Assembly: GCA_026417275.1 (NCBI GenBank)
Contig: JAOADO010000010.1
Location: 269-38,621, forward strand
Length of the DNA stretch: 38,353 nt
Direction of reading: 5' to 3'
From: Verrucomicrobiia bacterium
Lineage (GTDB): Bacteria > Verrucomicrobiota > Verrucomicrobiae > Limisphaerales > JAKPVM01
Shown: piece by piece, positions 7,976-9,838 of the stretch
How the letters are laid out: every line of letters begins with the position of its first letter
Position numbering within the stretch: the stretch's first letter is position 1
Notes under the pieces: generated by a model
The model's database searches: none
What the model was told of the DNA's origin: nothing
The model's input: the letters and a program-made list of their open reading frames with translations, nothing else
Position numbers and translations under genes: made by a program

Positions 7976-9838
7976 GTGGCTACGAATCCATTATTTGAAA
8001 TCAGAAGAATAAGATTGGAAAAAGTAAAGGCATTAAGGGAACGCGGATTAAACCCGTATCCCTCAAAAGCCGTTCGAACAAATTATTCAAAAGACATCAT
8101 CTCTGACTACGCGACATTTGAAGGGAAAGAGGTCGTTGTTGCCGGTCGTTTAATGTCTTTCAGAAAACAGGGAGCCCTCGCCTTTGGACATGTCCAGGAC
8201 CAGACCGGAAGAATACAGTTGTTCTTCCGAAAAAATCTGGTGGCACCAACAGACCCAACAGAAGGAACGCTCGGTTACTCGGATTTAAACCTCGTAGACC
8301 TCGGCGACATTGTCCAGGCTCAGGGCAAAGTCGTTAAAACAGAACGAGGCGAAATCTCTGTCCTTGTCGAAAAATTCAAAATCCTCACAAAAGCCATAAG
8401 ACCGTTGCCGGACCAATGGCATGGTCTGCGCGACCGCGAACAAATCCTTCGCAAACGTTACCTGGACACAATTCTTAATCAACAAAGCCACGAACGTTTC
8501 ATGCTTGTGGCTCAAATCACACGGGCAATTCGTGAATTCCTGAACTCCCGCGGTTTTATAGAATTCACCACCCCCGTCATCCAGCCACAATATGGAGGCG
8601 GAACAGCGAGACCATTCAAGACCCATGTCAACGCCCTTGGCGTGGATATGTACCTGGCAATCTCCCACGAACTCTACCTTAAAAGGCTAATTGCCGCTGG
8701 CTATGACAAAGTCTACACAATCGGCAGATACTTCCGCAACGAAGGCATAGACAGAAGCCACCACCCCGAATTTTCAATGGTTGAAACCATGACCGCTTAC
8801 GAAAACTACGAGTACAATATGAATCTCGTGGAAGAACTATTCCGACATGTGGCAAAAACTGTCTTTGGGAAAACAGTGTTCGATGTCCGCGGTCATCAGG
8901 TGGATTTCGAACAACCGTGGAAACGAATCAAAATGAACGATGCTGTTAAAGAAAAAATCGGCATAGACTTCACAACCATCCAATCTGTCGAAGAAGCACG
9001 CGCCATCCTCGAAAAACACAACATCCATGACGAATGCAACTCGGTTGGCGAAGCAATTTCGCTCGCCTTCAGCAACTTAATAGAACCTGAACTCGTCCAA
9101 CCAACAATCGTCTATGGACACCCGGTGGACATATCGCCACTTGCAAAACCTATGGCAGAAGACCCGCGTTTTGCAGAACGATTCGAAATCTTTATCGCTG
9201 GAATGGAATGCGGCGACAACTGGTCAGAACAAAACAATCCCGTTCAACTGCTCGAAACATGGAAAAAATCTTATAAAGCGGAAGAACGAGACACAGGTAA
9301 ATTCCATACACTCGATTTTGATTTCATTGAAATGCTCGAATATGGAATGCCGCCCACCACAGGCATTGGACCAGGCATCGAAAGAATGGCTATGATTTTC
9401 ACCAATCAGGAAAGTATTGATGACGTCATCTTCTTTCCGCTGATGAGACCCACCGTCTCCCCAATCAATGCTGAACTTTACGGGGTGCAAGAACCTCCGG
9501 CGCCTGTCTCTGAAGACCTCGCTTTTAACCAGGACGAGTTCATTGAATTGTGTCAAAATGGCGCCCTACATCCGGAATCCGGCGAATTTATTATCAAACC
9601 GCAATGGCATTGCTGGCAACAGGTTAAAACAGGAAAATGGAGCGTATCTGGACACGTTGAAATTCAAGGTTTCCTCCTCTCAGGCATCGTTAGAGTCTGC
9701 GGTTACAGAACAGAATCCGATATTAAACCAGAGTTATCCAGCGACAAAGAAAACCTCCAGAAGTGGCTCGATAAGATTGTCAACGCGCTACAAAAGGCTT
9801 TCCCCGAGCACAAATTACTATTAAGCCCAGTTGAATAA
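7976..9838 (+). CDS. lysS: Class II lysyl-tRNA synthetase-like protein with altered lysine pocket and C-terminal extension
   Basis: This protein attaches an amino acid, by family lysine, to tRNA in the cytoplasm. At 620 residues it exceeds the usual 490-510. It starts at GTG 7976 with GGAG eight bases upstream. An OB-fold anticodon domain (about 55-160) has the VAGRLMSFRKQG and HVQDQTGRIQLFF segments. The class II core keeps motif 2 (FRNEGID), E232 and E270 (E. coli E240 and E278) and motif 3 (GPGIERMAM). Three lysine-contact positions differ when aligned by eye to E. coli LysS: Tyr280 is M272, Asn424 is D414 and Phe426 is W416. After the usual end (FFPLMRP, about 492) a further 120 or so residues follow, Trp-rich in PQWHCWQQVKTGKW, in no domain I recognise. 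It could be the sole LysRS of this lineage or a paralog with changed specificity. Confidence 0.85.
   Translation: MATNPLFEIRRIRLEKVKALRERGLNPYPSKAVRTNYSKDIISDYATFEGKEVVVAGRLMSFRKQGALAFGHVQDQTGRIQLFFRKNLVAPTDPTEGTLGYSDLNLVDLGDIVQAQGKVVKTERGEISVLVEKFKILTKAIRPLPDQWHGLRDREQILRKRYLDTILNQQSHERFMLVAQITRAIREFLNSRGFIEFTTPVIQPQYGGGTARPFKTHVNALGVDMYLAISHELYLKRLIAAGYDKVYTIGRYFRNEGIDRSHHPEFSMVETMTAYENYEYNMNLVEELFRHVAKTVFGKTVFDVRGHQVDFEQPWKRIKMNDAVKEKIGIDFTTIQSVEEARAILEKHNIHDECNSVGEAISLAFSNLIEPELVQPTIVYGHPVDISPLAKPMAEDPRFAERFEIFIAGMECGDNWSEQNNPVQLLETWKKSYKAEERDTGKFHTLDFDFIEMLEYGMPPTTGIGPGIERMAMIFTNQESIDDVIFFPLMRPTVSPINAELYGVQEPPAPVSEDLAFNQDEFIELCQNGALHPESGEFIIKPQWHCWQQVKTGKWSVSGHVEIQGFLLSGIVRVCGYRTESDIKPELSSDKENLQKWLDKIVNALQKAFPEHKLLLSPVE

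Follow-up and report, generated by a model that had tools for sequence, protein, structure and literature searches.

Bacterial class II lysyl-tRNA synthetases (LysRS) of the LysS/LysU type (TIGR00499) join an OB anticodon domain to a class II core that carries the FRNEG motif and the residues Glu240, Arg262, Glu278 and Glu428. In these ordinary enzymes a Tyr and a Glu hydrogen-bond the amino group of the lysine side chain, and a Tyr/Phe makes a hydrophobic contact to C-delta, as described in the available excerpt of a structural survey of synthetases (PMC7387524). That excerpt numbers these readers by alignment position, and they were mapped here by spacing to Tyr280, Glu428 and Tyr/Phe426. 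EpmA (GenX), the EF-P beta-lysine ligase, has the same class II LysRS-like core, but the E. coli protein is without the OB domain and keeps the Tyr (EWY) and ANGF. Class I LysRS (LysK) belongs to another structural class and is likewise a second LysRS form in some bacteria, apparently acquired by transfer (PMC7373986, in excerpt). The AARS Online table, as excerpted from PMC11580382, holds one class II LysRS entry, LysRS-II.

Here, a lysS-like gene is described from a 38,353-nucleotide stretch (the window) of contig JAOADO010000010.1 of a Verrucomicrobiia bacterium. The product shares with LysS/LysU the domains, motif and four residues listed above, a profile score over the cut-off and the likely substrate. 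It departs from them by Tyr280 to Met, Arg236 to Ala (Ser in some relatives), Asp at 424, Asn at 425, Phe/Tyr426 to Trp, P239H, A217G and Asp to Glu in motif 3; the variant also often has a C-terminal domain, and the window protein is 35–44% identical to ordinary LysRS among the matches listed. From sequence comparison, the enzyme is judged a class II LysRS of a separate, fully supported clade that probably loads tRNA-Lys with ordinary L-lysine, using a rebuilt pocket for the side chain.

The window gene and its family

The window protein exceeded both curated cut-offs for bacterial class II LysRS in NCBIfam profile searches, scoring 504.5 bits against TIGR00499 lysS_bact (cut-off 427.6) and 556.7 bits against NF001756 (cut-off 468). 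The class II LysRS architecture is present: the OB anticodon domain is followed by a class II core in which both motif 2 and motif 3 occur (Table 1). When a full AlphaFold model of the protein was submitted to Foldseek, LysRS structures were placed on top (9jkl, E 4e-45). Scores of 194.5 and 177.8 bits against cut-offs of 286.9 and 264, together with the presence of the OB domain, speak against identity as EpmA/GenX. The class I LysRS model TIGR00467 was absent from the 19 NCBIfam matches of the protein at E ≤ 0.001.

Within the window no tRNA gene was found by ARAGORN and no Rfam match at the gathering score. Genes for a GH38 alpha-mannosidase-like protein, an alpha-L-fucosidase and a large Big_7/PKD protein are also encoded, and perhaps form a polysaccharide-using set around the LysRS gene.

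Table 1. Features of the window and of the G044 locus. Residues in ranges are those of the window protein; substitutions are in E. coli LysS numbering.
Feature	Location	Strand	Details
lysS-like gene, class II lysyl-tRNA synthetase of the Met280-type clade	7976..9838	+	620 aa, GTG start
N-terminal OB-fold anticodon-binding domain, residues 53-137	8132..8386	+	PF01336, 50.8 bits
Class II catalytic core, residues 154-490	8435..9445	+	PF00152, 257.5 bits; motif 2 FRNEG, motif 3 GIGPGIER
Loop QYGGG, residues 205-209	8588..8602	+	P214Y and A217G flank Gly216; alignment rows
AISHE, residues 228-232	8657..8671	+	R236A, P239H, E240 kept as E232; alignment rows
ETM, residues 270-272	8783..8791	+	E278 kept, Y280M; alignment rows
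CGDNWSEQN, residues 412-420	9209..9235	+	N424D, G425N, F426W, E428 kept as E418; alignment rows
C-terminal extension, residues 494-620	9455..9835	+	Predicted small alpha/beta domain; model mean pLDDT 89.4
GH38 alpha-mannosidase-like protein with F5/8 type C domain	4553-7894	-	
Alpha-L-fucosidase	15376-16968	+	
Big_7/PKD protein	28034-34423	+	2129 aa
G044 run, variant (L046, L235)	G044:C6, about 218-229 kb		Aspartokinase-like (AA_kinase + ACT), then variant LysRS
G044 run, beyond the variant	G044:C6, about 218-229 kb		GNAT; degenerate LysRS-like 591 aa; AMP-binding/methyltransferase protein; unannotated 244 aa protein; saccharopine-dehydrogenase-like protein

Replacement of lysine-pocket residues

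The window protein was aligned with MAFFT to E. coli K-12 LysS (NC_000913.3), whose residues are numbered without Met1. In this alignment Arg236 is replaced by Ala228, Tyr280 by Met272, Asn424 by Asp414, Gly425 by Asn415 and Phe426 by Trp416, while Glu240, Arg262, Glu278 and Glu428 are retained as Glu232, Arg254, Glu270 and Glu418. Two side-chain readers of the standard pocket, Tyr280 and Tyr/Phe426, are thus absent from the window protein (Met272, Trp416) and the third, Glu428, is present (Glu418). An initial annotation made by eye had named the changes at 236, 280, 424 and 426 and the retention of Glu240, Glu278, Glu428 and FRNEG, and each of these assignments proved correct. It had allowed that a proper alignment might shift the residues; MAFFT returned the same pairs, and the three pocket segments were free of gaps in phmmer alignments to the solved LysRS 3a74, 9jkl and 9slz. 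Its list holds for the residues it names, but the change is wider than listed: P214Y, A217G, P239H, L279T, I422C, G425N, A472T, I476P and D479E are likewise constant or almost constant among clade members.

These positions were compared in an alignment of 158 rows. The 60 variant rows are the window, 55 loci from a contig scan and four carriers from genome surveys; the other 98, among which E. coli LysS appears twice, are ordinary. Tyr280 is present in 98/98 ordinary rows and Met in 60/60 variant rows. Arg236 is likewise found in 98/98 ordinary rows, with Ala in 46 and Ser in 13 of the variant rows and one variant row being without that stretch. Position 217 is Gly in 59 variant rows and Ala in 98/98 ordinary rows; position 214 is Tyr in every variant row having a residue there and mostly Pro or Ala in the ordinary rows. 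At position 424, the ordinary rows have Pro in 69/98, mainly from the phylum and order samples around carriers G001 and G003, and Asn in 29/98. Given that Asn424 is not universal among ordinary LysRS, only the Asp at this position is special.

In total, 23 discriminating columns set the clade apart, with 12 inside five active-site loops and 11 outside. The 12/23 in the loops compares with 44/169 among clade-fixed columns (Fisher p 0.0036, for loops picked by the analyst). With conservation taken into account the enrichment is modest, so some of the change may reflect overall divergence along a long branch.

A separate clade of lysyl-tRNA synthetases

A protein search with the window sequence scored 8000 candidates, 7287 of them at E ≤ 0.001. 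The best 120 of the 7287, at 64–89% identity and unselected for the pocket motif, have identical letters at positions 236/239/240, 278-280 and 423-428. As nearest relatives, these 120 alone do not bound the clade. The 55 loci of the contig scan are biased towards the signature, since DNWSEQN was among the word patterns used. Among the 158 rows no intermediate was present: all ordinary rows have Arg236 and Tyr280, and all variant rows have ETM and GDNWSE. All 60 variant rows agree letter for letter at 278-280 and 424-428, even where identity to the window protein falls to 50%. A further 30 loci from two phylum samples comprised 28 ordinary genes, all with Arg236, Tyr280, Asn424 and Phe426, and two carriers already counted.

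The window gene belongs to a separate, fully supported LysRS clade and is not a one-gene oddity. In a tree of 96 rows (40/60 variant, 56/98 ordinary) built with the pocket columns removed, the variant rows fell on one side of a single branch that has an SH-aLRT of 100 and forms a stem 1.22 changes per column long. One long-branched ordinary row, L057, which the program flags, was weakly placed beside the clade. A second tree of 72 rows (30 variant, 42 ordinary), built without L057 and with ordinary LysRS from two further phylum samples, again gave one branch with an SH-aLRT of 100. Both were quick, unrooted searches without bootstrap.

Several irregular genes were observed in the course of the comparison. 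One carrier gene (L010, 1572-3428) is interrupted, giving frames of 462 and 170 aa, through assembly error or decay. Among ordinary LysRS, six from the carriers' order (L195, L196, L197, L199, L200 and L202) have an insertion of 84–118 aa near E. coli residue 312, and two (L198 and L203) one of 38 aa near the same residue; in L201 an insertion of 41 aa lies near residue 362.

The C-terminal extension

The extension of the window protein was compared with Pfam, in which no family matched the extension of more than 1/33 clade members at E ≤ 0.1, and by sequence with solved structures, the only match being at E 0.43. Foldseek with the extension model gave no match at E ≤ 0.001 and no clear fold. 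The extension is missing in L025, L030, L037, L044, L053 and L054, and is therefore not tied to the pocket type. It is frequent in the clade but separable, having been lost or never gained in some members. Binding of tRNA would be a guess at its role.

Gene complement of carrier genomes and distribution of the variant

Fifty of the 55 loci were searched as whole genomes, and sole status is counted in relatives of the window organism. Matches over the TIGR00499 cut-off were present in 50/50 carrier genomes, one in each of 49 and two in G044, the second being of the ordinary type; a LysRS gene broken across two contigs would fall short of this cut-off, and some sub-cut-off matches are EpmA-like in length (~310-320 aa). 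Class I LysRS (TIGR00467) was over its cut-off in 0/50 carriers, with weak matches of at most 24.4 bits in 10/50, and in 4/14 controls for this search. In the near-complete carrier genome G042 (AP025252.1), the variant is the one LysRS over the cut-off, and the tRNA-Lys genes UUU and CUU both end in A73-CCA (30 of 46 tRNA matches scanned).

The initial annotation had called for a count of lysS and class I lysK genes in the genome, had offered altered amino-acid specificity as one reading of the pocket, and had named as counter-evidence the same residues in verified sole LysRS enzymes of relatives. Genome searches point to such sole enzymes: altered amino-acid identity is unlikely, because 49/50 carriers have no LysRS over the cut-off besides the variant, and class I LysRS is over its own cut-off in none. 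This sole status is the main reason, though not proof, for taking lysine as the substrate. The other reading offered was a lineage-wide remodelling, along with a survey of LysRS in the same phylum. The remodelling is supported, but the lineage is a LysRS clade rather than a phylum, as most sampled genomes are at the identity level of ordinary LysRS and the variant was found in a minority.

The surveys behind this statement used the window protein as query at E ≤ 1e-50 and identity as a proxy for type, variants being at least 52% identical to it and all other listed matches at most 44%. Counting the carrier at the centre of each sample, the variant was found in 1/288 genomes of the phylum of G001 (272 with any match), 3/297 of that of G042 (236) and 1/198 of that of G037 (187), in all three among the matches listed, and in 1/148 of the phylum of G029 (138). 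The order of G003 held it in 14/116 genomes (101 with any match), and a repeat sample from part of this order in 8 of 58. Because matches were sorted by E-value, those beyond the ones listed for the phyla of G001, G042 and G037 are no full-length variants, although they may include short variant fragments. Carrier titles cover Verrucomicrobiota, Acidobacteriota (Bryobacterales), delta-proteobacterial, Nitrospirae and other MAGs. The variant has probably spread between phyla by horizontal transfer, displacing the ordinary gene, as the scattered MAG labels suggest, some of which may be binning errors.

Predicted recognition of lysine by the variant pocket and alternative explanations

The variant is predicted to grip the lysine side chain differently from ordinary LysRS. 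The retained residues Gly208, Glu232 and Arg254 are presumably the partners of the alpha-amino and alpha-carboxylate groups. Without Tyr280, the side-chain ammonium would be held by Glu418 (E428) and Glu270 (E278), and the new Asp414 would make a third acidic partner in place of the missing Tyr hydroxyl. Trp416 would take the place of Phe/Tyr as a wall of the aliphatic chain. The full AlphaFold model has a mean pLDDT of 75.9 and drops under 50 at residues 201-229 and 255-262, too low for a usable pocket geometry; the contacts proposed for Asp414 and Trp416 are deduced from their position.

The strongest alternative, though somewhat unlikely, is near-neutral drift, by which a long-isolated LysRS clade would have passed through compensated pocket steps without change of function or selective reason. 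The very long stem and the 11/23 discriminating columns outside the pocket loops are what such a history would leave. However, the letters at 278-280 and 424-428 are the same in all variant rows at identities down to 50%, which argues for present constraint, though many of these rows came from the DNWSEQN scan. The patchy spread also suggests exchange or some advantage.

In another alternative, the pocket is a resistance or exclusion form whose selection and transfer would have been driven by toxic lysine analogues such as thialysine, or by a natural product directed at LysRS. Other synthetases have second forms that spread in this way. LysRS is given as the primary target of thialysine in the available excerpt of PMC12764776, and the reference list of that paper includes an article (Jester 2003) that, by its title, concerns exchanging one LysRS for another in response to lysine analogues. 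The changed residues include side-chain readers (PMC7387524, in excerpt), and the reading of analogues would therefore alter. The patchy spread and the lack of the ordinary gene in 49/50 carriers are consistent with this explanation, but sole status is equally what is expected of a plain housekeeping gene, and no neighbour is common to the whole clade.

In G044, the only one of the 50 carriers with both forms, the variant lies among biosynthesis-like genes (Table 1) and the ordinary LysRS (L057) on another contig. The degenerate LysRS-like protein of this run has few relatives: of the candidates scored, 15 including the protein itself reached E ≤ 0.001. The run resembles a biosynthetic neighbourhood, so far undescribed, that includes a second synthetase, and it comes from one genome. 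Such a second copy beside biosynthesis-like genes was seen in this carrier but not in 20 other carrier neighbourhoods (7–19.5 kb each), and the genes of the run were found neither there nor at the other loci examined. Resistance as the selective reason is unlikely. Bolder, and also unlikely, is a general scheme in which class II LysRS would comprise two types with different side-chain chemistry, a Tyr280 type and a Met280/Asp424/Trp426 type, the latter moving between phyla, displacing the Tyr280 gene and escaping analogues or LysRS-directed natural products, with the Acidobacterium G044 as a self-shielding producer.

That the enzyme attaches another or a modified amino acid (beta-lysine, ornithine or hydroxylysine) to tRNA, or to a protein such as EF-P, is very improbable. 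The loss of Tyr280, present in every ordinary row and also in E. coli EpmA (EWY), would favour it. Against this stand the sole-LysRS status in 49/50 carriers, the normal tRNA-Lys genes of G042, the OB anticodon domain that E. coli EpmA is without, scores below both EpmA cut-offs and the retention of Glu240, Arg262, Glu278 and Glu428. Fine specificity, towards analogues or ornithine, may nonetheless have changed in the enzymes of the clade. An artefact of misalignment, contamination or a pseudogene is scarcely credible: most carriers are MAGs and the L010 carrier gene is broken into two frames, but the pocket alignment is gap-free, the best 120 of 7287 homologues agree across several sources, and the near-complete genome AP025252.1 has the variant as its one LysRS over the cut-off.

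Implications for class II LysRS

The preferred reading therefore remains that of a lysine-charging enzyme with a rebuilt side-chain pocket. No published title on the Met280 type, and no assay of a clade member, was found in the open-licence literature, searched mostly with broad terms. By pocket and by tree, the clade would be a second type of the LysRS-II of AARS Online, for which the excerpted table has no subtypes (PMC11580382). The difference between the types is hidden in annotation because the curated models name both lysine--tRNA ligase.

Tyr280 is invariant in the ordinary rows compared (98, and 28 more) and is apparently one of the two residues described as contacting the side-chain amino group (PMC7387524, in excerpt). 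A sole housekeeping LysRS without this residue therefore suggests a second way of reading lysine. The clade is a natural test of rebuilding a synthetase pocket for an unchanged amino acid. It may also supply enzymes that differ in their response to analogues or inhibitors.
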